Source: Chitinimonas sp. BJB300 (lineage in GTDB: Bacteria; Pseudomonadota; Gammaproteobacteria; Burkholderiales; Chitinimonadaceae). Taken from it: 47,116 nt of DNA. Below are positions 15,862 through 45,656 of the stretch, piece after piece; position 1 is the stretch's first letter, and each line of letters starts with the position of its first letter. The notes below the pieces were generated by a model. It saw nothing but the letters and a program-made list of their open reading frames with translations, had not been told where the DNA came from and made no database searches. Where the stretch lies: positions 1 to 47,116 of the forward strand of contig NZ_PDZH01000021.1 of the NCBI RefSeq assembly GCF_002735695.1. The letters run 5' to 3'. Position numbers and translations under genes: made by a program.

Positions 15862-17550
15862 TTAACCGCGGAGCAAAGTGAGCACCTGATTCGGCAGCGC
15901 GTTGGCTTGCGCCAGCATCGCAGTACCAGCCTGTTGCAAGATCTGTGCCTTGGTCAGGTTTGCCGTTTCAGAGGCAAAGTCAGCATCCTGAATCCGTGAG
16001 CGGGAAGCTGAGATGTTTTCAGAAGCCGTTTGCAAGTTGGCAATCGTCGCCTGGAACCGGTTCTGCAAGGCACCAAACTTGGCGCGCTGGCCGTTCACCA
16101 CTGAAAGCGCACTGTCTACGATACGCAGGGCTTGGTTAGCGCCGTCTACCGTTGTCACATCCAGTGCGTTCACCGCCACCAGGTTGGAACTCAGGCTGTT
16201 CCCCGAGATCAGGGCGCGGCCCGAAGTTGCATTTGGCGTCGAACCGGACGATGCGAACACACCCGACTGGAAGGTGGTGCCGCTCAGAGCCGAAATCGAA
16301 TAACTCTTGTCGGAGTCCAGTGTAACCTGTCCACCGATACGGAGGAGGAAGCCCGATGTCTGGCTTGCGCCACCCGCCGAACCACCAGAGCCAACCGCAC
16401 TCATGTGGTAAGCGCCAGAGATCGGTGTGCCACCGGCACCACCAGTAGCCAGAGAGATGACACCGGTTGAGGCCGTGTCGACAGCCGTCGAGACGCTCTG
16501 CAACACAATGTCGCTACCATCGTCATTGGACAGGATGATGGCGCTGCCAGTGTCGTTCAAGCGGGCAGTAATCCCTGTTTGTGAAGCCCGGTCGTTAAAC
16601 GCCTGCACGGCTTCGGCCAACCCGGAAGTCGAGCGATTATCGCCCACCTTGAAGGTGACGTTGACAACCTGGGTATTGGAACCGGTGACGTTGACCGAAT
16701 ACGACAAGCCGTTACCGCTGACGCCATCCGTAGTACCCGAGCTGACGCCGATACCACCGGCAGAGCTGACGTTGAATTGAATCAGCGCCTGGGTGCGAGC
16801 GCTGGCGCGTACACCGGTGTTGGTCGCATTGACAGCCGCTGCCACATCACGGGCTGATGAGCCAGAACCAAGGTTGGCGATAGTTGCACCGCCATTACCG
16901 CCATTGATACTGATGGCGCCTGAACCGTTCGCATTACGCGAGTCAAGCACCGAGCCCGATGTCCCGCCGCTGATGACAGTACCGGATACCGTACCGGTCT
17001 GGGCGAAGGTTGCCAGCGACAGCTGGCTGCGCATTTGGTAGGTGCCGTAGTTATTGGTGCGGAAGTTGGCTGTCGTTGCAGTGACTACCTCGTTGGCGTT
17101 TGCGCCAATCTGGTAGGCAGCCGAGCCGAAAGAGCCATCAAACAGCTTCTGCCCGTTGAAGTCGGTCGTGATCGCAAACCGATCCAACTCAGCCGTCAGT
17201 TGGGAAACTTCCGAATTCAATGATGCCCGGTCCGACACGGAGTTCGTACCGTTAGCGGACTGCACTGCGAGTTCGCGGATGCGCTGTAGCAGATCGCTCA
17301 TTTGACCAAGCGCGCCTTCACCAACCTGCGCCAACGAAACACCATCGTTTGCGTTACGACGGGCTTGATCCATACCGCGGATTTGTGAGGTCATCCGCGA
17401 AGCAATCGACAGGCCTGCTGCATCATCCTTAGCGGAGTTGATACGCAAGCCGGTAGACAAACGTTGCAGCGACGTGCTCAAGCCTTCGGTGGTTCTGGTT
17501 AGGTTCCGCTGGGCGTTGAGCGACGGGATGTTGGTGTTGATGACTTGCAT
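15862..17550 (-). CDS. fliC: Flagellin (second copy, at the head of the filament operon)
   Basis: A 562-residue flagellin whose N-terminal ([40 protein letters not shown]) and C-terminal helices ([43 protein letters not shown]-type) nearly match the copy at 8261-9898. The central 200-450 region is Ser/Thr/Gly-rich and differs by substitutions and short insertions. It heads the fliC-flaG-fliD-fliS-fliT unit, has AGAAGGAGA before the ATG and a very good sigma-28 promoter 63 bp upstream. Its position next to the pseudaminic acid and glycosyltransferase genes makes it the likely glycosylation target. Which flagellin dominates the filament cannot be told from sequence. Confidence 0.96.
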
Positions 17551-17696: not shown

Positions 17697-20600
17697 CTAA
17701 AAATCAAACCATGCAGACATCCATGCTGGCAGCCGGTTTTGCAGCAGCCAGTTGTCTATTACATATTGCCGGAGCCGGTCACCACGCCGCGCCGCTTCGT
17801 CCAGGTCATGGATATGCTCGCGTATGGCTTTCACCCAATCCGCCGTACGGTTCTCTACCAACGTAATTGGATAATCGCCTTGGTAAGGCGTCCAATTGGT
17901 CGCAATCATCGGGTAGCCCAGTATTCCGTACTCAAGCACACGCAGATTGCTCTTGCACGCATTGAATGCATTGAGTTCCAGCGGCGCGATACCTACATCC
18001 AAGTTAAGGCTGGCAAGATGACGTGGGTATTCCTCAAACGACACGCCAACCCGAATATCGGCCAGGAAATCACGCAGTGGCTCGGGCGCCATACCAAAGA
18101 ACACCCACTCGACCTCGTCCGCTAACTCGCGCACCACGTCATAGATGATTTCCAGATCGCCACCGTGGCTTACACCGCCAGCCCAGCCTACTCTCGGTTT
18201 TTTCCCCATCCGACGTCGGGGTTTGAAGTCGCCCCATATGTCAATGTCGATGCTGTTCGGCACCACCCGGATATCGTCATGCATATCCGCAAAGGCTTCC
18301 TTGAGCGGCTCTGTCGTAACAATAAAACGGTCGCAGTAGCCCAAGGCCTTGCGCATCTTTTCCCCCATATTGCGGGGCAGATCGGGACGATGGAGACTCT
18401 TCTTGGGTACTTCCGTCATCAGGTCATCGGCTTCAAAGATCAGCCGGATATTCCGCTGCAACTTGTATTCACGCAGGAAAGGGATCTGGTGGTCCATCAT
18501 CTGCCGCTGCAGCACGATGGTGTCAGGCTCCATCCGGCCAATCTCAACCATCAGGTAATGGTCAAATGACTTCCAGCCTTCGACCAACCCTTGCTTCACA
18601 GCGGCCGAATGCGGCTGGATGATGCGATAGTTGCCGCAACCCCAGTTATCGCCGGGTATCGACAACAGCCGCGGCAGTGGCTTCCAGGGCAATGCTTTCT
18701 TCGTCAGCTGGGGCCGGGGTTCGATCTCAAACACCCCGCCTTGCAGGATCAAATTACTGTTGTAAGCCGGGTCAAATGACAGCTGCTTGAGCCAATGCTG
18801 GTACAGCAACGCTTGGTTGGCATGCTCGCGCTCAACACGTTGTGCTGTGGGTATCAACACACCGTCGTTAAGGCTGGTGCCCCGCGTATGGACCAAGTTA
18901 GCATAGGGTGTCCAGATGATGCGGTAACCCGCAGCACCGACACGCAGGCAGAGGTCATGGTCGGCTTGATAGAGATCAAACATCTCGTCCATTCCCCCAA
19001 CCTGCTGGAATACGGTTCGGCGTATCAGCAGGCAACTGCCCGAGACGGCCGAATAATTCTGGACGGTTTGCAAACGACCGTAGTACCCGGGCTCATCAAA
19101 ACGCAGGCCCACAAACGGACTTTCGGCGACACCCAGCAGGCCCAGAATACGTCCGGCATCGTCCACCGTACCGTCTGGCCGCAGCAGTCGTGGGCCAACC
19201 ACGCCGACTTCGGTGCGCTGTGCTTCTGCCATCATCTCTGGCAACCAGCTCGCCTGGATAGGTGTGATGTCGTTGTCCAGAAATAACAAATATTCGCCGG
19301 TCGCCTCGGCTGCCGCTTGGTTTCGCAGCTTGGCAAAATTCAAATCCTCGGTGACACGATAGACCCGGAGGCGATCATCACCCATCTGGTCCAGATCCGA
19401 CAGATAGCCCAAGGTGGCTTGGTCTTCACTCCCGGTGTCGATCAACAATAGTTCGTAATCGGGCCAGTCGGTGTTATTGAGCAGGCCTTCCAACGTACGT
19501 TGCAGGTCGGCCAGATGTTCACGCGTCAGCATGATGATGGACACACGCGGCTGGCCGGCATGCCGATAACGTACCCGATAGGTACCCGGCAGGCTGCCAC
19601 CTACCACTTCCGCATCCACCTTGCGGCGGCGTAGCGAATCAACCAGTGCGACCTGGCCAGCGGCAATGCTTTCCTGGGTGGGTAAGGTGTCGAGACTGCG
19701 TTTTTCCGCACGGTGGTAGAGCACATCGCTGACATGCCCAAACGCCGCGTTACCGTATTGTTCCTGCACACGCAACAGCAAGTCGAAGTTGCCCGCACCC
19801 AGCGCCTCGGTGGAATAGCCACCCAACTGGGCAAAGCTCTCCTGGCGAATCAGGAAGAAGTCGCCAATGTAGGGCAAGGCCAGGAAATAGTCGGGACAGA
19901 AGTCAGGCTTGAAGTAAGGCGAGCTATGGCGCCCTCCTTCTTCGCGCCGGTCTTCATCAGTGTAGATAACGCGCCAGTCCGGATGGCTGTAGGCCGCTTC
20001 CATCAGATATAACAACCCCTGCGGTGCAATCTCGTCACCCGATTGCAGCACCGTCACCCAGTCGGCATCGCTTTCGATCAATACCTGGTTGACTGCCGTA
20101 TTCGGTTGGCCCTCATAGGTCAGCCATTGCATGCGGGTGTTCTCTGCAAACCCTTCCGGAACGGCGCAGGGCGCCAGCAAGGTAAAGCGAACCCGGAAAT
20201 ACAACTGATTGGCCAGGGCCTGGATCGTGACCGGAATCTGGCCGAGCGTTTCCGGACTCGCCACGACCACAGCGTGGACCATGGGCTGGTGCCCCCACTG
20301 GGCGATCCGCTTCTCGTAATGCCCTACCTCGACCTTGGTAAGCAGATGCGAGCGCAGGAAATGCTCGTAGGCTTCGCCTGGCTGGATTGCCGGCTGGGCG
20401 ATCGGGTTGTAGTCGGTCAATGGCTGGGCACCAAGCTCCACCACCGTGTAGAACTGCAAGGAGCACAGCTCGCTCAACTCCTCCAACGTCACATTCTTCA
20501 TCACCATCTTGCCGCAGTCGATATCGCACGGGACCTTGGTGGAGAACAGGTCGAAAAGGGAGCGCAAGCGTGGGTCGATGCCATTGACCGCCTTCACAAT

Positions 20601-22448
20601 GTGATAGCCGGTTTCGTGGAAGAAACGCTTGATTTCCTTGTAGGTGAAGAAGCGGATATGGGTGATGTCCAGCAGGCCCCAGGCGTCGTAGCGCCAGTAG
20701 CCGCGCGCCAGGTCTTCCATCAAGCCGACATTACGGGTGTTGGGGATGCTGGTGACAATCTGGCCCTTGGGTGAGAGCAAGGGCTTGAGCCGCGTCAACA
20801 CATCCCATGGGTTGTACATATGCTCGAGCACATCGGCGATGATCACCGCATCGAGCGTACCCGGCTCGATGCCTTCGGCGACCATGTCGAAATCCTCGAA
20901 TTTACCGTTGAGCACCTTGTCGAGCCGGGTGGCCGCTTTTTCCGCCGCCGACTTGTTGATCTCGACCCCCCATACCTTCGCTTCAGGGTATTTTTGCTTG
21001 AAGGCAAAGCCGGTTCCCCCTGCCGAGCAACCGATATCCAGCAACAGCTTGGGATCATTGGTGAACATCTCCACCAAATCGGGACGACGGCCATCGTGGT
21101 AACCCGTCGCATCGATGTGCTCGACATCAAGCAGCTCCTGCCAAAGGTACTTGGTGGGGGCGTTGGGCCGCAGCAATTGCCGCATCAACTCAGCAACTCG
21201 TTGATGCGATTGCCCATCTACGCCCACGTTATATCGAGGTGCCGCTGCCTTGACCTTGCCGGCTAGGTGCTGCCGTGTTTCGTTACTGCTGGCCAGATGC
21301 GCCAGTATGGGCCCCAACTCGTTGGGCACGACTTCAACCACGCCGCTGTCGGCATCGAAACTTGGGCCCAGCCGCATGCCAATCCAATTCATGAGGTTCA
21401 CCACCGGCGTGCCCGCCAGCATGGCTTCGACCTGGATATTCGAATCAGTCCCTACCACCACATCGGCGGCCACCACCCACTCCTCCGCCCCATCCGTGCT
21501 ATAGCAATAGGCTTTGTCAGGCAGGCCAAGCTCACGGGCGATCCGTGCTACCCCAGCCTCACCCTCCACATTCGAGCCGGGCCGGTCCTTGATCACATAT
21601 TCGGCAGCGATTCCTGCTTCATGCAGGGCGCTGACCCCCGCCAGAAATTGCCGTACCCCGCTTTCAAACGCCTGAGGGTCGCCCAGCGCCGTCAGGTTCG
21701 CGGCCCAGGTTGTACCGAACACCAACCAGGGTTTCTGGCTATCGAGGCCAAGTTGCTTGGCAAACTTGCTGCGGTATTCCGCCCGCCGACCAATGTGGGC
21801 GGGATAGCCATCCCAGGCCGGGTTACCGGTGACATAGCAGCGCTTGGGGTCGACGCCAATGTCGAGATAGCTCTCCAGCCCACGTTGCCCATACACCGCC
21901 AACGAGTCGGCGAACAAGGCCCCGTGCACGGTATAAGGTTTGCTCAACGCCACACCATGCATCAGTTGCAGGCTGGGGATGGACTGGCGCTTGGCCCAGA
22001 TGACGGCTGTCTTGGAAGCCGAAGTCAGATCTTCGCTGGTCACCAACAGGCGGATATCGAATTGCTCAAACGCCAGCTGCAAGCTTTCCAACAGGTGCAC
22101 CAAACCGGGTATTTCGGCATCGGCACGGGCTTTCAGCAGGGGCTGGAAGCGCTTTTCATCAAGCTCCAGCGTGGTGCACCCGTCTTCCCAACCGGTAGTG
22201 GTGAAGTAGTGCGCCAGCTTGGATAAGCCATCATTCACACCTTGGTGAATACGTTGCTGCGCGGCGTCATCCAAGAGGCTTTCCAGTTCGATCAATGTCG
22301 AACCCGACTGTTGCAGGCGTTCTGCCAACGGCGCATCGAAGTGGGCCCGTGGGCAAATGATGATCAGGCCGGGTTCGTTGGCGCAGAATGCCTCGATCAC
22401 CTTGCTGTAACGCAGCCATAACAGGGAGAGAATGGCGCCTTGCTTCAT
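17697..22448 (-). CDS. Giant multidomain glycosyltransferase/methyltransferase
   Basis: A 1583-residue cytoplasmic protein with five recognisable modules. Residues 1-425 resemble GT-B-type sugar transferases (HGVALSKPYTVHG, VTGNPAWDGYP, VVGTDSNIQVEAMLAGTPVVN). About 460-650 is a class I SAM methyltransferase (LLDIGCSAGGTGFAF near 468, IIADVLEHMYNPW). About 720-950 is a GT2-type domain with the TDEDRREEGG and YFKPDFCPDYFLAL motifs. About 965-1235 is a second GT2 domain (VSIIMLTREH, FLDNDITP with a DxD-like motif). About 1260-1583 is a GT4-like C-terminal domain (IPGDNWGCGNYRII, VPNSIDIDIWGDF, RVGWAGGVSHGGD). It overlaps the preceding methyltransferase gene by ATGA and lies directly upstream of flagellin. 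The best inference is that it assembles or transfers the flagellin glycan. Acceptor and sugar specificity are unknown, and O-antigen assembly is the alternative. Confidence 0.85.
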   Translation of the reverse strand: MKQGAILSLLWLRYSKVIEAFCANEPGLIIICPRAHFDAPLAERLQQSGSTLIELESLLDDAAQQRIHQGVNDGLSKLAHYFTTTGWEDGCTTLELDEKRFQPLLKARADAEIPGLVHLLESLQLAFEQFDIRLLVTSEDLTSASKTAVIWAKRQSIPSLQLMHGVALSKPYTVHGALFADSLAVYGQRGLESYLDIGVDPKRCYVTGNPAWDGYPAHIGRRAEYRSKFAKQLGLDSQKPWLVFGTTWAANLTALGDPQAFESGVRQFLAGVSALHEAGIAAEYVIKDRPGSNVEGEAGVARIARELGLPDKAYCYSTDGAEEWVVAADVVVGTDSNIQVEAMLAGTPVVNLMNWIGMRLGPSFDADSGVVEVVPNELGPILAHLASSNETRQHLAGKVKAAAPRYNVGVDGQSHQRVAELMRQLLRPNAPTKYLWQELLDVEHIDATGYHDGRRPDLVEMFTNDPKLLLDIGCSAGGTGFAFKQKYPEAKVWGVEINKSAAEKAATRLDKVLNGKFEDFDMVAEGIEPGTLDAVIIADVLEHMYNPWDVLTRLKPLLSPKGQIVTSIPNTRNVGLMEDLARGYWRYDAWGLLDITHIRFFTYKEIKRFFHETGYHIVKAVNGIDPRLRSLFDLFSTKVPCDIDCGKMVMKNVTLEELSELCSLQFYTVVELGAQPLTDYNPIAQPAIQPGEAYEHFLRSHLLTKVEVGHYEKRIAQWGHQPMVHAVVVASPETLGQIPVTIQALANQLYFRVRFTLLAPCAVPEGFAENTRMQWLTYEGQPNTAVNQVLIESDADWVTVLQSGDEIAPQGLLYLMEAAYSHPDWRVIYTDEDRREEGGRHSSPYFKPDFCPDYFLALPYIGDFFLIRQESFAQLGGYSTEALGAGNFDLLLRVQEQYGNAAFGHVSDVLYHRAEKRSLDTLPTQESIAAGQVALVDSLRRRKVDAEVVGGSLPGTYRVRYRHAGQPRVSIIMLTREHLADLQRTLEGLLNNTDWPDYELLLIDTGSEDQATLGYLSDLDQMGDDRLRVYRVTEDLNFAKLRNQAAAEATGEYLLFLDNDITPIQASWLPEMMAEAQRTEVGVVGPRLLRPDGTVDDAGRILGLLGVAESPFVGLRFDEPGYYGRLQTVQNYSAVSGSCLLIRRTVFQQVGGMDEMFDLYQADHDLCLRVGAAGYRIIWTPYANLVHTRGTSLNDGVLIPTAQRVEREHANQALLYQHWLKQLSFDPAYNSNLILQGGVFEIEPRPQLTKKALPWKPLPRLLSIPGDNWGCGNYRIIQPHSAAVKQGLVEGWKSFDHYLMVEIGRMEPDTIVLQRQMMDHQIPFLREYKLQRNIRLIFEADDLMTEVPKKSLHRPDLPRNMGEKMRKALGYCDRFIVTTEPLKEAFADMHDDIRVVPNSIDIDIWGDFKPRRRMGKKPRVGWAGGVSHGGDLEIIYDVVRELADEVEWVFFGMAPEPLRDFLADIRVGVSFEEYPRHLASLNLDVGIAPLELNAFNACKSNLRVLEYGILGYPMIATNWTPYQGDYPITLVENRTADWVKAIREHIHDLDEAARRGDRLRQYVIDNWLLQNRLPAWMSAWFDF

Positions 22449-23695
22449 GGTTGTTCTCCCTGGGCAAAGATATTCAGATAGTCGACGAGGATATCTCTCA
22501 TCATGTTGTATTCCATCCCGGGCCCGAAAGGCACGCCGGCATGTTCAAACTTGGCGCCGAAATCACCACTGCGCCGCCATTCGCCCGCCACCCTTAAGGC
22601 GTAGAGATCAATCTCTTCCTGCAACTGCCAGTCCTCAAACAGTTCGCTTATCCCCTGCGGCAGATAATCCTTCAGCGAAATCCCCGGGAAATGGGTGCGC
22701 ACAACCTTGAGGAGCTCAAACAGCAGATAGGTATTGCGTGGGTGGATCAGCATCGTTTGCAGGCGTTCCACTTTCTGTTCAGGGAAGGCCGGCAGGGTCT
22801 GGGCAATATCCCCAGCGCGCCATAATCCATTGAGTTGCTCCTGCGCTGCCAGCCAAGCGGCGTTGCCAGCCGGGTCGGGTTTTTTATCAAGCACCACCAT
22901 GTAGCGGCCGGTCGCCGTCGTCGGCAACTGCCACACCACCTCGGTTTCCAGCCACAGCGCGAACTCGAACAGCTTGGGGTCGGACGTCATCCACCCCAGC
23001 AGGCGGTTCCACCAGTGTTTGGTCTCGATATTATTGAGCCAGTGGTTGCGAGTACTCACCACAAAGCCGCCTACCGCTGTGATCGCTTCCACGCAATAGC
23101 CATTGTCATCGGCCCAGGCCACGATTTCGTGCGCACGCGCCAGCGACATATAGCTGCCAAACGCAGCCTCGCCCTCGGCCACCATGCGCTGTGTTGCTTC
23201 ACCCGCGCCGTAAACGGCTTCCAGATGGTCCAAGGAGTGGATATCGAACAAAATGCGCCCACCCGGCTTCAGCACCCGGTCCCACTCCTGCAAGATGGTG
23301 CGCCAATGCGGAAAGTGCACAACGACGTTGAGCGATAGCAGAAAATCGAAGTCCGCATCGGGCAACGGCAGCCTGGCTACGTCACCGGGCAGCAACGTCA
23401 TCGGCGCGTCACCCGCCAACCGCCTGGTCTCATCCAGCATGGCCTGCGAGCTGTCGATCCCAGTCACGTCCATACCGCGCTGTGCCAGAGGAATGGAACC
23501 ACGCCCGGTGCCTATCCCGACATCCAGCACGCGCTTCCCGGTGGCATAGCGTTCGATATAGCGCATTTCCAGCTGATGCTTGAGCTGGTTGGTGCCGGTA
23601 TTCTCAAACATGCGCTTGGAATACCACGAAACCATGTTGGCATCCTTCCAGGCATCGGTCTTCCAATCGATCAACGCTTGCTTGTTTTCACTCAT
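22445..23695 (-). CDS. SAM-dependent methyltransferase with a C-terminal extension
   Basis: A 416-residue protein. Residues 45-165 form a class I methyltransferase domain with the glycine-rich motif VLDVGIGTGRG at 56-66, VTGIDSSQAM, a proline-containing motif (GDVARLPLPDADFDFLLSLNVVVHF) and GGRILFDIHSLDHL. The remaining 180 or so residues are not recognisable, so this is larger than a bare methyltransferase. It overlaps the start of the giant protein by four bases, which implies coupled expression and a role in methylating the same glycan or its precursor. The substrate is not determined. Confidence 0.82.
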   Translation of the reverse strand: MSENKQALIDWKTDAWKDANMVSWYSKRMFENTGTNQLKHQLEMRYIERYATGKRVLDVGIGTGRGSIPLAQRGMDVTGIDSSQAMLDETRRLAGDAPMTLLPGDVARLPLPDADFDFLLSLNVVVHFPHWRTILQEWDRVLKPGGRILFDIHSLDHLEAVYGAGEATQRMVAEGEAAFGSYMSLARAHEIVAWADDNGYCVEAITAVGGFVVSTRNHWLNNIETKHWWNRLLGWMTSDPKLFEFALWLETEVVWQLPTTATGRYMVVLDKKPDPAGNAAWLAAQEQLNGLWRAGDIAQTLPAFPEQKVERLQTMLIHPRNTYLLFELLKVVRTHFPGISLKDYLPQGISELFEDWQLQEEIDLYALRVAGEWRRSGDFGAKFEHAGVPFGPGMEYNMMRDILVDYLNIFAQGEQP

Positions 23696-23798
23696 CTTGC
23701 GTTCCCGTCTTTGGTTTTCAGTTCACTGCAGGCTGGCACTTTTATCGCCTTGCCGCTGTTCTGGGGCCTGGCTGGGCATGACCCATTTCATGGGTCAT

Positions 23799-24350
23799 CT
23801 ACACTGCAAGAAACGCAGCGCTCAGTACGGCGAATTCCACGACATCCACAAACTGCCCATTTTTCCAGGCAGCCTCGATGCGGCGCCCTTCTTCTCGCAT
23901 GCCCAGTTTGAACGCCAATGCCATCATCCCCACGTTGTTGGCATAGGTGCCACAGTAGATGCGGTGCAGGCCCAGTGCCTTGAAACCATGTTCGATCAAC
24001 AATAGGCTGGCCTCGTAACCGATGCCGGTCCCCCACACGCTGCGATCCCCCAGCAAGATGGCGAACTCGGCTGAACGATGGCGTGGATGAATCTGGTTGA
24101 GCACGATATTGCCAACATGGCGGCCACTTTCGGCGATCACGATGGCGAGCATCAGGCTGTCTTGGCGGTTTTGATTACTGCGGATGAATTCCCGTGCGGC
24201 TTCCCGGCTGAAGGGGAAAACATGGTGGCTGTTGCCAGCACAGGCTTCCGCATCGTTCAGCCACGTAACGTAATGGCCATCGGCATCGGCTTCGCTCAGT
24301 GCGCGCAGGTGGACTCGCGGGCCACGTAGAAAGGGTGGTGCGGCACTCAT
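23799..24350 (-). CDS. GNAT N-acetyltransferase (RimJ/RimL-like)
   Basis: A 183-residue protein of the RimJ/RimL-type GNAT group: VHLRALSEADADGHYVTWLNDAEA at the N-terminus, the acetyl-CoA loop GDRSVWGTGIGYEASLLLIEHGF near residue 105, then LGLHRIYCGTYANNVGMMALAFKLGMREEG. In sugar clusters such enzymes acetylate amino sugars. It overlaps the DegT aminotransferase by ATGA, so acylation of the amine made by that enzyme is the simplest inference. The 103-bp gap after it contains no recognisable gene. Confidence 0.85.
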   Translation of the reverse strand: MSAAPPFLRGPRVHLRALSEADADGHYVTWLNDAEACAGNSHHVFPFSREAAREFIRSNQNRQDSLMLAIVIAESGRHVGNIVLNQIHPRHRSAEFAILLGDRSVWGTGIGYEASLLLIEHGFKALGLHRIYCGTYANNVGMMALAFKLGMREEGRRIEAAWKNGQFVDVVEFAVLSAAFLAV

Positions 24351-25636
24351 GCTTTTCCCTCACGCAGGCTATCAAGTTGGGTCAAAACCTTCTCCCAGGC
24401 ATTGGCGATACTGTCGACATCGGCTGGCGTAAGGCTGGCATGCACATAGTCGGCATAAAGCAGTGTTTCAAAATGCATCCGCTCGGTAACTGGGCACAGC
24501 CCACGCGCGTAGTTCAACTCGCCCTGGTAACCTGGGTATGTAAACGGAAAGCCATCACGGCCAATAGCGATCCGCTGCTGGTACATCGGTTGCAGGTAAA
24601 TTGGCTCGACATAGCCTTCGCCGACCGGAATCCCTTCAGCCCGCAGTGCCTGCGCCAGCCGCACGCGTGAAACACCGTTGCTATGGGCGTCATATTTAAT
24701 GGCGTAGACATACCAACCATGCTCAACATCGGGCGAAACCACCGGTATGCTGATACCGGGCAAACCCGCCAACCGCTGGCTTAGCCGAGCGGCATTGGCT
24801 TGCCGGGTGGCAAGCAGGGCCGGCAACTTTTTCAGTTGCTCTGCCGCAATCGCCGCTTCGATTTCCGTCATCCGATAGTTGAAACCAACCAGATTGACGA
24901 GGTTGGTTTCAGCCTTGGGCTTGGCCACCGCCTCGGCATGATTGCGAATCAACCGCATCCGTTCCGCAAGATCGGCATCGGCAGTCACGGCAATACCGCC
25001 TTCTCCGCAATGGATGGTCTTGTGGTAGTTGAGGCTGAACACGCCGATATCAGCCAAAGTACCGCTATATCGGCCCTGATATCGGGCACCGGGTCCCTGG
25101 GCGTTGTCTTCAATCACCCGCAGGCCATGCTGGCGCGCGAGGGCCATGATGGGTTCGAAGTCAGCAGGCTGGCCAAAGATATCCACCACAATGATCGCCT
25201 TGGTACGCGGTGTGATCCGCGCTGCAATCGTGGCAGCCGACAGGCAGAAGGTGTCAGGGTCAATATCGGCAAATACCGGTATCGCCCCATATACCACTGC
25301 GGCAACTGCTGAAGCCGACATGGTGTAGGGCGATACGATGACTTCATCACCTGGGCCGATGCCCAGCGCGCCCACTGCGGCATACAGGCAGGACGTGGCC
25401 GAATTCATCGATACGGCATGGGGAATATCAAAATGTCTTTCCCACGCGCGCTCCAGCGCTTGTACCCGGTCGCCACCATAGAAATCCGGGGTCCATGCTC
25501 CCAGAAAACGTGACAGCACCGCACTATCGAGCACCGCATTGACGGCAGCCCGCTCTTCCGGCCCCAAGGTGTTGTAGGCAGGAAGCGGCGCATTGCGCAC
25601 GGCTTGGCCACCCAACAAAGCAAGTTGTTGCGTCAT
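24347..25636 (-). CDS. DegT/DnrJ/EryC1-family sugar aminotransferase
   Basis: A 429-residue pyridoxal-phosphate enzyme of the family that transaminates keto-sugars bound to nucleotides. The cofactor-binding Asp177 (VIEDNAQGPGA), the catalytic Lys206 in SLNYHKTIHCGEGG and the GDEVIVSPYTMSASA segment are all present. It is clearly distinct from PseC at 31007-32167, which lies in the same cluster, so a second transamination is implied. The sequence has no exact functional assignment. It could act on a sugar oxidised by the Gfo/Idh oxidoreductase encoded two genes upstream. Confidence 0.88.
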   Translation of the reverse strand: MTQQLALLGGQAVRNAPLPAYNTLGPEERAAVNAVLDSAVLSRFLGAWTPDFYGGDRVQALERAWERHFDIPHAVSMNSATSCLYAAVGALGIGPGDEVIVSPYTMSASAVAAVVYGAIPVFADIDPDTFCLSAATIAARITPRTKAIIVVDIFGQPADFEPIMALARQHGLRVIEDNAQGPGARYQGRYSGTLADIGVFSLNYHKTIHCGEGGIAVTADADLAERMRLIRNHAEAVAKPKAETNLVNLVGFNYRMTEIEAAIAAEQLKKLPALLATRQANAARLSQRLAGLPGISIPVVSPDVEHGWYVYAIKYDAHSNGVSRVRLAQALRAEGIPVGEGYVEPIYLQPMYQQRIAIGRDGFPFTYPGYQGELNYARGLCPVTERMHFETLLYADYVHASLTPADVDSIANAWEKVLTQLDSLREGKA

Positions 25637-25662
25637 ACCAGTACCATCCGGACACTTCCCAT

Positions 25663-26691
25663 TCAGGCCAACAGCACTGTGAGCACATCCAGCACGCGCT
25701 GGGCCGACAAGCCATCAAGCGAGGGTGCTTGCGGCCTGGGCCCGGTCAATGTATCGACCAACGCTTGCGGCAACCGGACAGCATCGTCGCAGCGGTGGCT
25801 GAGACCTGAACGATTCGAGGGTAAGGGGTCGCTCGCTAGGCCGCCGGGTTGGTAACTCAGTACCCGACAACCGAGGTAGCACGCTTCAAGCAGCAGCATC
25901 GAATGGATGCCCACCACCATATCGGCACAACTAAGCAAATCATGAGCCAATGCAGACGGCGCTATCCGTGTATTCGTCCACATCTGACCCGCGCCAGTAA
26001 AATCAGCCAGGTCTTCACGCGGATGCGGTTTGATGCGTAATGCAATGGGCCGTGCCAGCGTCACCAAGGCAGCTTCAACATCACGCAGCACCGCTTGCTC
26101 ATCAATCGCTGGCGGATGCCCCAATTGCCGGGCCATCTGACGTAGCGGTTGCGAGACAAATAGCAACAGGCTTTCATCAGGCTGAAGCCCACATTCGGCG
26201 CGTAAGGCCGTGCGCGCCGCCGTACTGAGCCGCCCTGCCCCTTGTGCAATCACATCCAAGGCTGGCTGGCCGGTAATCTGCAGCATGCTGGCATCAAACC
26301 CTGCCGCCACCATTTCGTCGCAGGCCAACTGGTCTGGCACCGCGATGCAATCCGGCCAGTGGCGCTGCCCACCCCGTAAAAAGCGCGGTTGATAGTTGCT
26401 CCAGAAATCAAGCAAGGCGAGGCTGGGCAACCCCACTTCCTTCGCCGCGGCTATCCAACTTAATTCGTGCTGATGCGGGTTGACCGATGTTGCGCATAGC
26501 ACACCGACGCTATTACTTAACGTGATGGCCTCTGCTGGCTCTACCAGCCAACCGCGTTCAGCCCACAAGCGTGCAGATTCGGCGTAGGCGAACAGTCGAT
26601 GCGGCCAGTGTTGCGCACGTAATTGCTCAATTACCGGCGCCAGGGCGTTACCCCCACCCGGGTCGCCAGCAATCACGGCAAGGGGATTCAT
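25663..26691 (-). CDS. GT-B-like protein of unknown specificity
   Basis: A 342-residue protein that looks like a GT-B-fold sugar enzyme: an N-terminal GDPGGGNALAPVIEQL glycine-rich loop, a middle QITGQPALDVIAQ segment, KPHPRE near residue 225 and a C-terminal CADMVVGIHSMLLLEACYLGCRVLSYQPGG. This last resembles the sugar-nucleotide-binding half of UDP-GlcNAc 2-epimerase and of several transferases. I cannot tell a glycosyltransferase from an epimerase or hydrolase. It overlaps the preceding oxidoreductase gene by ATGA and so belongs to the same translational unit. Confidence 0.65.
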   Translation of the reverse strand: MNPLAVIAGDPGGGNALAPVIEQLRAQHWPHRLFAYAESARLWAERGWLVEPAEAITLSNSVGVLCATSVNPHQHELSWIAAAKEVGLPSLALLDFWSNYQPRFLRGGQRHWPDCIAVPDQLACDEMVAAGFDASMLQITGQPALDVIAQGAGRLSTAARTALRAECGLQPDESLLLFVSQPLRQMARQLGHPPAIDEQAVLRDVEAALVTLARPIALRIKPHPREDLADFTGAGQMWTNTRIAPSALAHDLLSCADMVVGIHSMLLLEACYLGCRVLSYQPGGLASDPLPSNRSGLSHRCDDAVRLPQALVDTLTGPRPQAPSLDGLSAQRVLDVLTVLLA

Positions 26692-27695
26692 GGCAAGCGC
26701 TCCGCTTTACCGCTGGCGAGCGATTGAATCGCTGTCTCCGCTGCCAACAAAGCAGCCAGCCCATCTTCCGCCGTACAGCGTGGCAGCCGTCTTGTTAGCG
26801 TGGCGTCACGTAGGTCTTCCACTGCCGCCAGCAGCAGATCACGCATGCCGCTCTGGTCGGTTTCCTGCAACTGCGGCAGGCGATAGCCTGAGTAAAAAGG
26901 GCTGTCTTGCACCGTGTACCAATCGATGCGATGCCCGCTGTCGCTTATCCGTACCCGGCCTAGCGTCGCCACGATATCCAGTTCGAACAGGCTGTAGGCA
27001 AGGTGGTTGGTACTGAGCAAACTGGCACGCAGGCCCGATGCCAGTTCAATCCGTAAATCCGGGCTGGGGTCGCTTTCGAAATCTGGCGCACTGCTGGCCC
27101 AGGCTTGTAAACGGCTGATAGGGCCGAAGCATTGACGCAGCAAATCCAGCCAATGGCTGCCGTTGTGGCGTATGCCTTTGCCGTAATAGCCGCTCACTTG
27201 TTGAATGTTACCCAGCCCGCCTTCGGCAAGGGCGGTTTGAACGCGTGCATGCGCCGGGCAAAATCGGCGTGAATAATTTACAGCCAGTGCACGCTGGTGT
27301 GTTGCTGCCAAGTCAACAAGCTCACGCCCCGCTTCAACCGACAGCGCCAACGGTTTTTCCAGCAATATGCCCCGCACACCGGGTGTGGCCAACGCCGCTT
27401 TCGCCAGCGGGAAATGCAAGGCATCGGGCGCAGCGATGCTGACCAAATCAAGCTGCCCTGCCGCCAGCATGGCTTGGGCGTTGGTGTAACGTCGTTCGAG
27501 CGGGATGCCGTAGCGGTCGCCGCAATTGGTCAGTTTGGCTGGGTCGGCGTCGGCAATCGCCCACAGCGCAACGCCCGCAGCCGCCCGGTACGCCGCGGCA
27601 TGGGTGTAGATGCCGATGCGCTGGGCATCATCATCGAACTCACAACCGATGCGGCCACAGCCGATCAGCCCTGCGCGCAGATCGCCCTGAGTCAT
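26688..27695 (-). CDS. Gfo/Idh/MocA-family sugar oxidoreductase
   Basis: A roughly 335-residue NAD(P)-dependent dehydrogenase. The Rossmann motif GLIGCGRIG lies at residues 9-17, a LLEKPLALS segment (the family's E-K-P catalytic motif) near residue 100, and SGYYGKGIRHNGSHWLDLLRQC further on. I chose the ATG at 27695, which overlaps the pseI stop codon by one base (TGATG), over the frame's first ATG at 27713. Such enzymes oxidise a hydroxyl on a sugar or nucleotide sugar. Together with the neighbouring aminotransferase and acetyltransferase it forms the oxidise-transaminate-acylate set known from the WbpB-WbpE-WbpD route, although the substrate here may differ. Confidence 0.85.
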   Translation of the reverse strand: MTQGDLRAGLIGCGRIGCEFDDDAQRIGIYTHAAAYRAAAGVALWAIADADPAKLTNCGDRYGIPLERRYTNAQAMLAAGQLDLVSIAAPDALHFPLAKAALATPGVRGILLEKPLALSVEAGRELVDLAATHQRALAVNYSRRFCPAHARVQTALAEGGLGNIQQVSGYYGKGIRHNGSHWLDLLRQCFGPISRLQAWASSAPDFESDPSPDLRIELASGLRASLLSTNHLAYSLFELDIVATLGRVRISDSGHRIDWYTVQDSPFYSGYRLPQLQETDQSGMRDLLLAAVEDLRDATLTRRLPRCTAEDGLAALLAAETAIQSLASGKAERLP

Positions 27696-28747
27696 CAGGC
27701 CAGTAGCCCCCAAGCCAGCGGCGTACCGCGCTTGATGGCTTTACCCGCCTTGCGGCCCAGCACGATTTCCAATGTTTTTGGGGGCAGGCCCAGCCCAGGC
27801 CGGATAGCGCGGATATTGTCAGCAGTGAATACTTCGCCTGCTGCGATGTCCTGCACCACATAGAGCGAGCGGCGAAATACCAAAGATTTTTGCTCGGCGC
27901 TGGTTGCACCGTATTGCACCTGTCCCATCGCCTGCCATGCCCGTTCGGTTTCGACCACCAACGATGCCATTTCTTCCGGTTCCAGCGAAAACGTCGAATC
28001 CACACCACCATCTGCACGGCGTAAGGTGAAGTGCTTTTCCAGCACCGTAGCCCCCAGCGCCACGGCTGCCACCGCCGCGCCTACACCCATGGTGTGATCC
28101 GACAACCCAATCTGGCAGTCAAACAAGTCACGCAGGTGGGGGATGGTGCGCAGATGGGTATTCGCAGGCGTAGCCGGATAGGTGCTGGTGCATTTGAGCA
28201 GGACCAAATCCTTGCACCCCGCAGCACGCGCCGCCCGGACGCTTTCATCGAGCTCCGCCACATTGGCCATGCCGGTGGAAATGATCATCGGCTTGCCCGT
28301 AGCGGCCACCCGGCGAATCAAAGGGATATCGGTATTTTCAAAGCTTGCGATCTTGTAGGCCGGTACATTCAAGGATTCAAGAAAGTCCACCGCGGTTTCA
28401 TCAAACGGTGTCGAAAACGCCAACATACCCAGCGCATTGGCTCGCTCGAAGATCGGCTTATGCCATTCCCACGGGGTGTAGGCTTCCTGGTAAAGCTTGT
28501 ACAGCGAGGTGCCGGCCCATAGGCTATTAGGGTCGGCAATATGGAATTCGCCCTCATCCAGGTCCAACGTCATGGTTTCAGGCGTATAGGTTTGCAGCTT
28601 GAGCGCATGCGCACCGGCTTGGGCGGCGGCTTCGACAATCGCCAGTGCCCGTTCCAGCGATTGGTTATGGTTGCCGCTCATCTCGGCGATCACAAAGGGC
28701 GCTGCATCGGCACCTATTGTGCGGTGGCCAATCTTGAAGCTATGCAT
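27695..28747 (-). CDS. pseI: Pseudaminic acid synthase
   Basis: PseI condenses 2,4-diacetamido-2,4,6-trideoxy-L-altrose with phosphoenolpyruvate to give pseudaminic acid. The sequence opens with FKIGHRTIGADAAPFVIAEMSGNHNQSLERAL, the NeuB-family N-terminus, has KCTSTYPA and EKHFTL metal-site segments in the TIM barrel, and a C-terminal SAF (antifreeze-like) domain (RRSLYVVQDIAAGEVFTADNIRAIRPG). I start at MHSFKIG (28747) because the longer frame to 28801 adds 18 residues unlike the family and an AAGGG lies upstream of this ATG. It is 62 bp after pseG/H and overlaps the oxidoreductase start by one base. Confidence 0.93.
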   Translation of the reverse strand: MHSFKIGHRTIGADAAPFVIAEMSGNHNQSLERALAIVEAAAQAGAHALKLQTYTPETMTLDLDEGEFHIADPNSLWAGTSLYKLYQEAYTPWEWHKPIFERANALGMLAFSTPFDETAVDFLESLNVPAYKIASFENTDIPLIRRVAATGKPMIISTGMANVAELDESVRAARAAGCKDLVLLKCTSTYPATPANTHLRTIPHLRDLFDCQIGLSDHTMGVGAAVAAVALGATVLEKHFTLRRADGGVDSTFSLEPEEMASLVVETERAWQAMGQVQYGATSAEQKSLVFRRSLYVVQDIAAGEVFTADNIRAIRPGLGLPPKTLEIVLGRKAGKAIKRGTPLAWGLLA

Positions 28748-28809
28748 GGATCCCATCCCTTTCGGCACGAATATCGACCTACGGATACTGCCCCAAACCA
28801 CCTCTTCCG

Positions 28810-30306
28810 CTACAAAATACGTACAAAGTGCGTATCGGCCTGCTGGTAACCTGCCTGCCGAAACAATTTTATCGAAGCCGCATTCCCCGGCAGGACCGTT
28901 GCATCGATAGCAACAACATCCGGCCAGTGCTGGGTAAGCTGTCTATCGCCCATCGCCAGCAAAGCTTGCCCCCAACCCATGCCCTCCTGCCCTGCAAATA
29001 AATAGATCGACACCTCGGCGCGCTCAGCTTGAGTGGCGGACCGGTCATAACGCAGCATGCCAACCGAGCCCCCGGGCCCCTCGCCGATCAGCAAAAGCCG
29101 GTCCGGCCGTTGCAGGGTACGGGTCAACCAGCTTAGATGCTGTTCCCAAGCAATAGGGGCCGAATCCAATGACCAACGCCGAACTAATGGTGCATTGCGG
29201 CCATCAAACAATAATTGCGCATCATCCAGCGTTGCCCGCCGCAGCTGCAAACACCGAGTCAACAAGGCAGCAGCGACACGCCGGGCACCCTGCCCATCGA
29301 CCAACGCGCGCGAATGCTGGGCGTAGCCCCGACGGACGTTGATGTCGGCAGACATCTCACCAATGGCTTGTTGCAGGTGCTGCACGCTGACAGTTTCCGC
29401 CAGCCCAAGATAGCGGTGCACACCCATCAAGGCCAGTTGTTCGGCATTGGCGTGTTGGTTTGCAGCAACGGCGATACAGATCGTCGGCAGCCCCAGGGCG
29501 GCGCGTTCCCAACTGGTGCCCCCCCCTGCGCCGATAAACAGGTCGGCCTCGCGCATCAATGCGGCAAAATCGCTGACAAAACGATGCAATCGCCACAGCG
29601 TCTGGCCAGCGGCACGCTGCTGCAACTGCGCCCAAGCGGGGTTGGCCGCTCCGGCCACAATGTCCACTTCCAGTTGGGGAAAAGCGGCCAGCGCATCGAG
29701 CGCCTTGAAGGTTTCACCACCCGCATCCACGCCGCCAAAACTCACGACAACGTGGCGAATCTGTGGGGCAATGACGATAGGTTCACCCGTAAATTCCGGC
29801 CGTAACAGCGCGTAATGGGGGCCAAGCAGTGCTTGGCATTGTGCAGGTATCAAGCGGGCATAGGCCGCCGTATTCGCAGTCTGATTTTGGTCCAGCAGCA
29901 AATCAGCATCATGCTGGCGATTGGCAAGGTCGTCGATGACGGCAATATGGCCCGCCATAGACCGCGCAGCCTGCTGCCAACGTGCATCCAAGCCGTAATG
30001 GTCAACCAGCAGCCAGTCAAATGCTGGCTGTGAGGTAAACGCTGCTTGCACGGCCGCAAAATCCGCTTGCCAGTCGATGGATGCTTCTATATCGGAAGGG
30101 ACAGGGTCTTGCGGATAATGACTTGGCAACCCGATGGCCGGAAAACCTTGCTCGGCAATCTGTGCCAGTGCATTGCCCGGCAAGCTGCGACAGGCAAATG
30201 TCACCACTGCGCCACCCTTGCGTAAGGCTTGCGCCAACGTCAAGCACCGTGCCACATGGCCAAAACCGATGGCCAGTGAAGCATCCGCCCGAATCAACAC
30301 CTTCAC
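28810..30306 (-). CDS. pseG: Fusion of PseG (nucleotide-sugar hydrolase) and PseH (acetyltransferase)
   Basis: A 498-residue two-domain protein. Residues 1-345 match PseG, which removes UDP from the bis-acetamido altrose intermediate: IRADASLAIGFGHVARCLTLAQAL at the N-terminus and the sugar-nucleotide site segment LFIGAGGTSWERAALGLPTICIAVAANQ. Residues 353-498 are a GNAT domain corresponding to PseH, which acetylates N4 just before the PseG step (LRRATLDDAQLLFDGRN, EVSIYLFAGQEGMGWGQALL, NAASIKLFRQAGYQ). In many bacteria these are separate genes. The start codon is GTG (30306-30304) and overlaps the pseF stop as GTGA. Two consecutive pathway steps are joined, though in the reverse order of catalysis. 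Confidence 0.92.
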   Translation of the reverse strand: MKVLIRADASLAIGFGHVARCLTLAQALRKGGAVVTFACRSLPGNALAQIAEQGFPAIGLPSHYPQDPVPSDIEASIDWQADFAAVQAAFTSQPAFDWLLVDHYGLDARWQQAARSMAGHIAVIDDLANRQHDADLLLDQNQTANTAAYARLIPAQCQALLGPHYALLRPEFTGEPIVIAPQIRHVVVSFGGVDAGGETFKALDALAAFPQLEVDIVAGAANPAWAQLQQRAAGQTLWRLHRFVSDFAALMREADLFIGAGGGTSWERAALGLPTICIAVAANQHANAEQLALMGVHRYLGLAETVSVQHLQQAIGEMSADINVRRGYAQHSRALVDGQGARRVAAALLTRCLQLRRATLDDAQLLFDGRNAPLVRRWSLDSAPIAWEQHLSWLTRTLQRPDRLLLIGEGPGGSVGMLRYDRSATQAERAEVSIYLFAGQEGMGWGQALLAMGDRQLTQHWPDVVAIDATVLPGNAASIKLFRQAGYQQADTHFVRIL

Positions 30307-31010
30307 ACGAACTCGCCACTGGCTTGCAAGGCGCTGTATAGGTATTCAGCCCGCAGCCAATCTTCCGGGGTATCGATATCCTGCACCAGATGGCGCGGCA
30401 AAATCACTGGCAGGGCGGCGGGCGAAAAAATCACCTCGCCGTTCAACCAAGCCGTTGCCCGCCCCCAATAAAACTGACCGGCATCGTGAAACGCCTCTTC
30501 CAGGTCTTGCGAGCGGGTATTGCGGTACTGCGGATAAAGCGCATCCACACAACCCTCGGTGGTGATTCGAATGGCACGCTGCACCGGAAAGGGAAAACTG
30601 GTCACCGAAAACGCATAGGCCTTATCGGGCTGGGCCGACAGCGCGTAGAAGCCGGCTTGCAGGTATTTGGGCTGGACAAAGGGCGCAGTCGCGTAGAGGC
30701 AACAGGCCATGCAGACTGCCTCCCCTTCGGCTTGCAGCACCTGAATCGCATGCTGGATGACGGCGATCGTGGTGGTATGGTCATCAGCCAATTCGGGAGG
30801 CCGTCGGAACGGCACCTCAGCCCCAAGCGATGCCGCCAACTCAGCGATTTCGTCGTCGTCGGTGCTGACCACAATGCGGTCAAACAACCCTGCCGCACGC
30901 GCTGCTTTGATGGCGTAGGCAATCATCGGCTGGCCGTGGAATGACTTGATGTTCTTACGCGGAATCCGTTTGCTGCCGCCGCGCGCCGGAATAATGGCAA
31001 CATTACTCAT
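30303..31010 (-). CDS. pseF: Pseudaminic acid cytidylyltransferase
   Basis: PseF activates pseudaminic acid with CTP to CMP-pseudaminic acid, the donor used by transferases. The 235-residue protein carries the CMP-sialic-acid-synthetase signature IIPARGGSKRIPRKNIKSFHGQPMI at residues 6-30, VVSTDDDEIA near 49 and DIDTPEDW near the C-terminus. Length and order between pseC and pseG are normal. It overlaps both neighbours by four bases (ATGA with pseC, GTGA with pseG/H). Confidence 0.95.
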   Translation of the reverse strand: MSNVAIIPARGGSKRIPRKNIKSFHGQPMIAYAIKAARAAGLFDRIVVSTDDDEIAELAASLGAEVPFRRPPELADDHTTTIAVIQHAIQVLQAEGEAVCMACCLYATAPFVQPKYLQAGFYALSAQPDKAYAFSVTSFPFPVQRAIRITTEGCVDALYPQYRNTRSQDLEEAFHDAGQFYWGRATAWLNGEVIFSPAALPVILPRHLVQDIDTPEDWLRAEYLYSALQASGEFV

Positions 31011-32167
31011 GGCCGCAACGCCGCACGCAGTTGCACCACCACTTCATCTTGCTGTGCATCGGTGAGACCCGCATACATAGGCAGGCTGATCGCTTCAGCG
31101 TAATAACGCTCGGCCTCAGGGAAGTCACCGGGCCGAAACCCCAAGGCGGTGTAATAAGGCTGCAAGTGCACAGGAATGTAATGCACATTCACGCCGATGC
31201 CGCCAGCCCGTAGCGCGTCGAACACGTTTCGATGGCTCTGGGTAATACGGTCCAACTGCAGACGCACGACATACAGGTGCCAGGCCGACTCTGCACCGGG
31301 CTGGCGGGTGGGCAACTGCAACGGCAGCCCCGCCAACAGTTGGTCATATCGCGCCACCAATGCGCGCCGGCGCACCAGGAAGTCATCGAGGCGTTGCAGC
31401 TGCGAATAACCCAACGCCGTTTGCACATCGGTAATGCGGTAGTTGTAGCCCAGCTCTATCTGCTGGTAGTACCAAGGTCCATGGCTGTTGCCCTGCATCT
31501 GCGCCGGGTCACGGGTAATACCATGGCTACGCAGGCGTTGCAGGCGCTGGGCCAAGTCGGTACGGTTGGTCAGAATAGCCCCGCCTTCACCCGTCGTGAT
31601 GATCTTGACCGGGTGGAAGCTGAAGATCGTCATATCGGCATAGTCGCCGCACCCGACCGGGCGTCCCAAATAGCTGGCCCCGACGGCGTGTGAGGCGTCT
31701 TCGATCACCGCAAAACCATACGCCTTGGCCAGCGCCCCGATGCGCGCCATGTCACAACTCTGGCCGGAAAACGCCACGGCAACCAGGACACGTGGCAGAT
31801 GCCCCGCCCGCTTGGCGTCGACCAACTTGGCTTCGAGCTTGTCGACATCCAGATTCCACGTAGCAGGGTCGATGTCGACGAAATCCACTTTCGCACCGCA
31901 ATACCGGGCGCAGTTGGCGCTTGCGACGAAGGTATTGGGGCTGGTCCACAGAGTATCGGCAGGTCCAAGATCCAACGTCACACAAGCCAAATGCAGCGCT
32001 GCCGTTGCATTACATACGGCCACCGCATGACGCGCCTGACAACGGGCTGCCAACGCCTGCTCGAATCGCTCGATGGCCGGCCCCTGAGTCAGCCAGTCGG
32101 ACTCCAGCGCTTCCACCACCGCTGCCACATCTTCAGGACTGATTTGCTGGCGGCCGTAAGGGATCAT
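31007..32167 (-). CDS. pseC: UDP-4-keto sugar aminotransferase of the pseudaminic acid pathway
   Basis: PseC aminates the 4-keto product of PseB, with glutamate as likely donor. The 386-residue DegT-family protein begins IPYGRQQISPEDVAAVVEALESDWLTQGP and has Asp157 in VIEDASHAVGA and catalytic Lys188 in IFSFHPVKIITTGEGG. The sequence and place directly after pseB distinguish it from the second DegT aminotransferase at 24347-25636. It overlaps pseB and pseF by ATGA. Confidence 0.95.
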   Translation of the reverse strand: MIPYGRQQISPEDVAAVVEALESDWLTQGPAIERFEQALAARCQARHAVAVCNATAALHLACVTLDLGPADTLWTSPNTFVASANCARYCGAKVDFVDIDPATWNLDVDKLEAKLVDAKRAGHLPRVLVAVAFSGQSCDMARIGALAKAYGFAVIEDASHAVGASYLGRPVGCGDYADMTIFSFHPVKIITTGEGGAILTNRTDLAQRLQRLRSHGITRDPAQMQGNSHGPWYYQQIELGYNYRITDVQTALGYSQLQRLDDFLVRRRALVARYDQLLAGLPLQLPTRQPGAESAWHLYVVRLQLDRITQSHRNVFDALRAGGIGVNVHYIPVHLQPYYTALGFRPGDFPEAERYYAEAISLPMYAGLTDAQQDEVVVQLRAALRP

Positions 32168-33159: not shown

Positions 33160-33327
33160 GCTCACTCTCGGTTTCTGTTTCAGATTGACGTTCTCGCATA
33201 GCAACCACTTGAAGCGCATGGCTCGCGTCAAATCACTATGCAATCAACCTTAGAAGCTGCGCGCGCCCACATCAATCACAGCTTGGCAGAACACCTCACC
33301 AGAGGTCACAACAATTGCATTAAGGCC
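33160..33327 (-). promoter_or_regulatory. Gap between def and pseB, probable promoter region of the glycosylation genes
   Basis: This 168-bp stretch is the only sizeable gap before the pse string, so a promoter for it is expected here. I see no sigma-28 or sigma-54 match and no strong hairpin. Read-through from mtnP-def therefore remains possible. Confidence 0.3.
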
Positions 33328-45420: not shown

Positions 45421-45656
45421 GTTGTCACTCATGTCGTTGTTGTTTTGATTAATTTTTTTATTGGCTTCAGGTACTACTGGAAATACAGGTTCGATCGGTG
45501 TAGTGCTCCTTTCGTCAAGGGTTTGGGGCGGTATGCAACGCCATGGGAATCAACCATCCGCATGGGTATCTGCAGATTTTGGCCGACTTTGATGCGAGCC
45601 ATGCCAGACTATCCGGTAAAATCAGTCCTTTCGAGGCCAATCAACCAAATACTGCC

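Follow-up and report, generated by a model that had tools for sequence, protein, structure and literature searches.

Nonulosonic acids are sugars found on flagella, capsules and O-antigens, where they influence recognition by phages and by the immune system; several described systems come close to the one considered here. According to the available sections of the respective reports, an 8-amino nonulosonate is present in the O-antigen of Tenacibaculum (Flexibacter) maritimum (PMC3210612), a pentadeoxynonulosonic acid is mentioned in PMC4052302, KdnB serves as Kdo 8-oxidase in the synthesis of Kdo8N (PMC5125639), EpaA and EpaB of Acinetobacter baumannii prophages epimerise pseudaminic acid (Pse) at C8 to 8-epi-pseudaminic acid (PMC12053666), and SfmABCDE of Shewanella, among which are a protein resembling PseI and a predicted methyltransferase, are needed to modify a flagellin bearing a likely nonulosonate (PMC3765264). 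Genes for the 8-amino nonulosonic acid of T. maritimum were not found reported in the accessible text of the open-licence PMC literature. In the present study a stretch of 47,116 nucleotides from Chitinimonas sp. BJB300 (contig NZ_PDZH01000021.1, positions 1 to 47,116; the whole of it is termed the window) was analysed, in which the genes for CMP-pseudaminic acid synthesis are followed by a Gfo/Idh oxidoreductase, an orphan protein of GT-B fold, a second DegT aminotransferase and a GNAT acyltransferase. With modest confidence these four genes are read as a tailoring cassette that makes an 8-amino (5,7,8-triamino) nonulosonic acid from Pse; this sugar probably gains a further amino group through the cassette, and genes for such a modification seem undescribed.

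All genes concerned lie on the minus strand in the order pseB, pseC, pseF, pseG-pseH, pseI, Gfo/Idh, GT-B, DegT, GNAT, methyltransferase, giant glycosyltransferase and flagellin. The cassette comprises the Gfo/Idh dehydrogenase (26688..27695; PF01408, 62.5 bits, cut-off 24), proposed as nonulosonate C8 oxidase, the orphan GT-B-fold protein of 342 amino acids (25663..26691; fold predicted), proposed as a partner or transferase handling the CMP-nonulosonate, the second DegT aminotransferase (24347..25636; PF01041, 303.6 bits), proposed as C8 transaminase, and the GNAT protein (23799..24350; PF13302, 85.3 bits), proposed as N-acyltransferase of the new amine. In front of it stand pseB for the inverting UDP-GlcNAc 4,6-dehydratase (32164..33243; TIGR03589, 553.5 bits, cut-off 407.75), pseC for the 4-aminotransferase (31007..32167; TIGR03588, 549.7, cut-off 423.5), pseF for the CMP-Pse synthetase (30303..31010; TIGR03584, 335.8, cut-off 205.7), a pseG-pseH fusion for UDP hydrolase and N-acetyltransferase (28810..30306; TIGR03590, 304.6, cut-off 153.55) and pseI for the NeuB-type pseudaminic acid synthase (27695..28801; TIGR03586, 509.8, cut-off 340.25). 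Thus PseB, PseC, PseF, PseG and PseI exceed their NCBIfam cut-offs; the PseH domain, C-terminal in the fusion, reaches 35.3 bits and stays below its cut-off of 93.1, a GNAT domain being present there. Only pseI matches NeuB over the full length in this genome; a second match, to PF03102, is partial (43.9 bits) and situated on a different contig. The extra enzymes thus probably have a single nonulosonate as substrate.

A preliminary description of this locus, drawn from the letters alone, had listed five extra genes behind the pse set, the methyltransferase being the fifth, and all of them were recovered as open reading frames (ORFs) with Pfam matches or, for the GT-B protein, a modelled fold; they are surplus to the CMP-pseudaminic acid pathway, as had been stated. 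Close coupling was likewise found: from pseI to the giant gene four of six junctions are overlaps of 1-4 bases, a single base at pseI/Gfo and four bases each at Gfo/GT-B, DegT/GNAT and methyltransferase/giant glycosyltransferase, while 26 bases separate GT-B from DegT and 103 bases GNAT from the methyltransferase. The start of Gfo is likely the ATG at 27695 rather than the TTG at 27713.

One line of evidence for the reading is the association with NeuB. In a sample of 299 genomes drawn evenly from the order of the window (DegT at E<=1e-120, Gfo and NeuB each at E<=1e-40), the DegT and Gfo families occurred in the identical 18 genomes, which belong to nine genera and seven of which are Chitinimonas. 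NeuB was present in 101 of the 299 genomes, including all 18 carriers; the hypergeometric P, inflated by relatedness here and in the following figures, was 1e-9 by genome and 7e-4 by genus (9/9 against 64/139), and with Chitinimonas itself excluded it was 3e-6 (11/11 genomes) and 1.5e-3 (8/8 genera). Every copy of the module in this sample (19/19) has a NeuB gene on the same contig at a distance of at most about 6.2 kb, as read from coordinates, and in one genome (G291) there are two cassettes, separated by about 20 kb and each accompanied by a NeuB of its own. As a side observation, the genomes of the loci L141-L143 (G263, G291) have two NeuB genes close together. A second sample, 395 genomes from a class of Bacteroidota, contained six DegT carriers, all with NeuB against a background of 211/395; linkage was seen in five, and the locus of the sixth is cut off at 3,150 bases. 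One of these carriers, G319, was the sample centre and had been chosen for carrying the module; without it the count is 5/5 (P 0.04). A 16S primer used to look for T. maritimum among the six carriers matched none of them exactly, and none was identified as this species. Hence co-occurrence is near-exclusive: among the 694 sampled genomes (299 + 395) the module was never seen without NeuB.

This linkage bears upon the most serious competing explanation, namely that the enzymes make a separate amino sugar from a UDP- or dTDP-hexose in the manner of WbpB/WbpE/WbpD, which the GT-B protein then joins to pseudaminic acid. Besides the constant company of NeuB, the gene content of the wider family speaks against it. 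A scan with DegT alone returned 279 relatives, of which 80 were kept as loci; 70 of these and six Chitinimonas stretches form a set of 76 family loci, three (L025, L040, L041) being left out as duplicates of L019, L023 and L024 with shared sequence, and seven further DegT loci from the same scan (L098-L104) served as outgroup. Twenty-five gene clusters occur in at least five of the 76 loci, comprising pse, cytidylyltransferase, amidotransferase/HisH/HisF, Maf, flagellar, TPR, amidase, acyltransferase and glycosyltransferase genes together with a family of about 207 amino acids without Pfam match, and neither RmlA nor a dTDP-glucose dehydratase nor a UDP-sugar 6-dehydrogenase, the set for hexose-nucleotide synthesis, is among them. 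In favour of a separate sugar, an RmlD-like reductase (six loci) and a short-chain dehydrogenase/reductase (SDR; seven loci) do recur. On balance, and including the evidence on the individual proteins given below, we consider a separate sugar unlikely. The preliminary description had left the choice between a second diamino sugar and a new Pse derivative; the latter, with amine and acyl group, is favoured over the former by the NeuB counts in both samples.

Counted with fixed score thresholds, and with many loci on short or truncated contigs, the 76 loci contain NeuB in 59, Gfo in 66, GT-B in 64, GNAT in 51 and a WbuX-type amidotransferase in 24 cases, each of which is found in none of the seven outgroup loci. 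The orphan GT-B gene is present in all six other sampled Chitinimonas genomes, with the same order pseI-Gfo-GTB-DegT-GNAT, and GNAT adjoins DegT in many loci; as the arrangement is conserved in other genomes, a chance arrangement is ruled out. Of 12 loci from the order sample, which overlaps with the 76 loci and is not independent of them (L144, L146, L148 and L149 coincide with L028, L033, L030 and L029), 11 contain GT-B, and in five (L138-L141, L147) Gfo directly neighbours DegT, GT-B lying further along. NeuB, Gfo and DegT look like the core, GT-B is usual, and genes for acyl, methyl and amidino transfer look like variable additions. In 24 of the 66 Gfo-bearing loci a CTP_transf_3 gene immediately precedes Gfo, and 13 of the 66 have at least two such genes, as if the cassette product needed a CMP activation of its own. 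Relatives of DegT among the scan loci come from many bacterial phyla and from two archaeal metagenome-assembled genomes (MAGs), where contamination is a possible source. A plasmid collection gave one record with the DegT family, and a phage collection yielded no DegT match at E<=1e-60. In three loci (L027, L044, L094) pseB is found beside an RmlD-like reductase and a NeuB that is divergent (30-32% to pseI in L027 and L044), and neither pseC nor pseG was detected, which hints that the cassette there serves another nonulosonate backbone.

What the enzymes may do follows from the positions available on the sugar. The chemistry of a Gfo and DegT pair is oxidation of a hydroxyl group and then transamination. 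In pseudaminic and legionaminic acid (Leg) amines occupy C5 and C7, the ring is formed through the oxygen of C6 and C9 is a methyl carbon, which leaves only C4 and C8 as free hydroxyls besides C2, so that an 8-amino product appears most likely. C8 of a nonulosonate corresponds to C5 of the hexose, whose oxygen is held in the ring until the NeuB condensation; because the C8 hydroxyl is free only thereafter, oxidation and transamination are placed at the level of Pse or CMP-Pse. In the proposed pathway PseI would first make pseudaminic acid, Gfo/Idh would then oxidise the C8 hydroxyl to a ketone, DegT would transaminate this ketone with pyridoxal phosphate, and GNAT would acylate the new C8 amine. 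The product would be a 5,7,8-triamino-3,5,7,8,9-pentadeoxy-nonulosonic acid, perhaps methylated, which a cytidylyltransferase (here PseF) would convert to the CMP sugar; the GT-B protein would handle the latter as a transferase, or act as partner of Gfo. Calculated residue masses are 357.15 Da with three acetylated amines, 371.17 with an additional methyl group and 315.14 with a free 8-amine, compared with 316.13 for Pse5Ac7Ac. An amine at C4, the sole other free hydroxyl, would fit the association data equally well; however, we know of no natural 4-amino nonulosonate. An 8-amino nonulosonate has been reported and redox enzymes for C8 exist (available sections of PMC3210612 and PMC12053666), and the C4 alternative is regarded as very improbable.

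The two central enzymes have intact catalytic residues. Lys206 of DegT is conserved in 66/66 aligned family members, and in Gfo the Glu-Lys-Pro residues are conserved in 58/58 with His187 invariant. At one site of the Gfo family, which we take to be the position of the usual catalytic Asp of Gfo/Idh enzymes, 49 of 58 members have His in the motif HNGSH. The DegT family is sharply bounded, members scoring at least 504 bits and outsiders at most 357. Another PseC was considered for the second DegT and rejected, the protein reaching 238.5 bits against the PseC cut-off of 423.5. Searched against solved structures, the DegT family profile scored 287.6 bits with Fic25, 274.8 with perosamine synthase, 253.5 with the Kdo8N transaminase 5k8b, 190.8 with WbpE and 188.7 with PseC, and scyllo-inosose-type aminotransferases are among its near relatives. 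A fold search with the DegT model returned equal Z for Fic25 and GDP-perosamine synthase, and the 37% identity to the latter is a point in favour of a separate sugar. The Gfo profile matched inositol 2-dehydrogenase best (124.9 bits) and ranked 3q2k (94) and 3q2i (90.5), presumably the WbpB-type entries, lower; WbpE and, less clearly, the WbpB-type entries are thus not the nearest relatives, contrary to what a separate sugar of the Wbp kind would suggest. The nearest solved relatives of DegT and Gfo do not settle the substrate.

Two other explanations draw on these same relatives. Enzymes building a non-sugar substituent, such as an amino-acid-like acyl group later put on Pse, would agree with Fic25 as best full-length DegT match, which was solved with an N2-acetyl-DADH adduct, presumably of amino-acid type. 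Amino-acid-like groups on nonulosonates are known, for instance Leg5GluNMe7Ac in the accessible part of PMC13317340. Among the clusters in at least five loci none could be recognised as a ligase or a carrier protein, though, and this explanation is held to be quite improbable. A pathway to an inosamine, in which Gfo would oxidise inositol and DegT would make an aminated cyclitol, could account for the inositol dehydrogenase and the scyllo-inosose-type aminotransferases among the best matches, but Gfo falls far under the iolG cut-off (72.5 against 355) and the linkage with NeuB would be left without explanation, which makes this pathway barely credible.

The GT-B protein has no Pfam or NCBIfam match at E<=0.001; its AlphaFold2 model (predicted local distance difference test, pLDDT, 95.5) matches GT-B-fold enzymes along the whole length, best UDP-GlcNAc 2-epimerases (Z 26.5, root mean square deviation 3.2, 316 aligned residues, 13% identity), and MurG-like folds as well. 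Weak best matches of the family profile in the PDB are UDP-2,3-diacetamido-glucuronic acid 2-epimerases (E 5e-4). Both results would support a separate sugar; against it, the protein has no match to PF02350 (Epimerase_2), by which a plain epimerase of this family was rejected at profile level, the only PF02350 match of the genome being on another contig. Arg103 and His223-Pro224 are invariant in 55/55 sequences; the His-Pro pair presumably recalls CMP-sialic acid and CDP-polyol transferases, a motif that occurs in other families too. No sialyltransferase is among the 50 structural matches listed for the model, which excludes nothing. Gfo and GT-B also occur in a single ORF in both orders, as Gfo-GTB in a Chloroflexi MAG (L042, 5989-8175) and as GTB-Gfo in a Campylobacterales MAG (L089, 8127-10004), and such natural fusions exist for DegT as well: on plasmid p6 of Azospirillum argentinense (NZ_CP032327.1, L160, 11998-14340) it is fused to a SAM methyltransferase domain, and about 12 kb there also include a short gene of the NeuB family, a FemAB-like GNAT and a run of cytidylyltransferase, Gfo and GTB. 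With low confidence, the GT-B protein is regarded as a CMP-nonulosonate transferase or a partner of Gfo.

Several points weigh against the tailoring of pseudaminic acid as proposed here. Relatedness inflates the co-occurrence statistics, as mentioned; a glycosyltransferase-like GT-B protein would fit a separate sugar too; and the fold of the DegT model does not fix its substrate, being tied between Fic25 with its amino-acid-type substrate and GDP-perosamine synthase. The GNAT count (51/76) may include PseH-type enzymes, and a Gfo/Idh neighbour is present in two of the seven outgroup loci, at 123 and 110 bits and hence below the threshold of 150 bits. Among longer loci, Gfo stays below threshold in L068, L074 and L087, and GT-B is lacking in L051, L074, L083 and L094. 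Furthermore, 17 of the 76 loci are without NeuB on the DNA examined; 15 of these were checked (outside are L065, by title the same MAG as L054, and L069), and 14 of the genomes carry NeuB elsewhere, while one genome of 1.1 Mb is without any NeuB. 8-amination of Pse by the cassette, taken as a nonulosonic acid tailoring set that has spread between lineages, remains the favoured reading. More tentatively, at somewhat less than even chances, we envisage a widespread and as yet unassigned 8-amino nonulosonic acid pathway in lineages as far apart as Pseudomonadota, Campylobacterota, Bacteroidota and archaeal MAGs, in which Gfo and GT-B would form one unit, DegT would be dedicated, and acylation, methylation and amidine steps would be interchangeable.

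Downstream of the cassette the S-adenosylmethionine (SAM) methyltransferase (22445..23695; PF08241, 83.5 bits) pairs with the giant four-part glycosyltransferase of 1583 residues (17697..22448), made up of a GT-B-like, a SAM methyltransferase, a GT2 and a weak GT4-like part, and such pairs recur in other loci; the methyl group may belong to the proposed 8-amino sugar. The N-terminal domain of the giant protein is homologous to the orphan GT-B (hidden Markov model match 125-427, i-Evalue 2e-13). Next comes the flagellin (15862..17550; an ORF identified by sequence reading) as likely acceptor, and flagellin homologues come after the giant gene in L025 and L026 as well. Flagellin, FlaG, FliD or Maf were found in 23 of the 76 loci, a lower bound, given that many loci are cut short and that the six Chitinimonas stretches stop ahead of flagellin. 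With NeuB in all sampled carriers and flagellar genes in 23/76 loci, the cassette travels with nonulosonic acids, not with flagella. The preliminary description had asked whether the gene set always accompanies pse genes and flagellin; a nonulosonate synthase is present in the sampled carriers, and flagellin, as the Bacteroidota carriers also show, is not required. The same genes seem to occur without flagella, a finding that the preliminary description had named as speaking against its interpretation, though not without pse or NeuB. Altogether, the observation of the genes is confirmed and a Pse derivative favoured, whereas the parallel with Wbp enzymes and the link to flagellin are weakened.

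Genes 5' of pseB in the window, an NTP transferase, a nucleoside phosphorylase and a peptide deformylase, were considered as pathway genes and rejected, since by their scores they are GalU, methylthioinosine phosphorylase and peptide deformylase, which look like housekeeping genes. In the Chitinimonas loci of G005 and G006, a TPR protein with a glycosyltransferase family 41 part is encoded upstream of pseB (L024, 16263-18779), possibly a protein O-glycosyltransferase. An alpha-amylase with a CBM20 starch-binding domain (43843-45432 of the window) has no relation to the cassette.

Should the proposal be true, an amine at C8 would change the charge of the sugar and allow acyl, amidine or methyl groups to be attached at one more position, and the cassette would be a genetic marker predicting 8-amino nonulosonic acids in many genomes (279 DegT relatives in a single scan). 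It would also supply genes for a sugar that, as far as found in the accessible literature, is so far known as a structure only.

A pathway with this gene set was not found described in the accessible text of the open-licence PMC literature, in keeping with the preliminary description; the Clostridium Pse/Leg islands and the nab clusters of Vibrionaceae, considered as described sources, do not mention it in the text available. The Shewanella Sfm genes were rejected as the same system, since their available description names a TPP enzyme, an oxoacyl reductase and an ATP-grasp protein instead of Gfo, DegT and GNAT. WbpB/WbpE/WbpD(/WbpI) are alike in combining a Gfo/Idh enzyme, a DegT and an acyltransferase (and a 2-epimerase-like GT-B fold), the parallel originally drawn for this locus, but membership in that group is not borne out by the sequence ranks given above or by the GT-B protein, which has no Epimerase_2 match; in addition, UDP-hexuronates are the substrates of the Wbp enzymes, and the fold of WbpD differs. 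EpaA/EpaB share C8 redox chemistry on Pse and a CTP_transf_3 domain in the system and differ, in the text available, by using an aldo-keto reductase (AKR) and an SDR for epimerisation only, with neither amine nor DegT; neither a CTP_transf_3-AKR fusion nor an SDR of this type is among the Pfam matches of the five cassette genes. In chemistry, KdnA/KdnB, which produce 8-amino-Kdo in Shewanella, are alike in C8 oxidation and subsequent transamination of a keto-deoxy sugar acid, and 5k8b, presumably KdnA, is a near though not the nearest relative of DegT. However, KdnB is an iron alcohol dehydrogenase, whereas the partner here is of the Gfo/Idh type, Kdo is an octulosonate, and KdnA/KdnB are not known to have a GNAT or GT-B partner. 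In its product, finally, the proposed pathway would match the O-antigen sugar of T. maritimum, known there as a structure and belonging to the same class.

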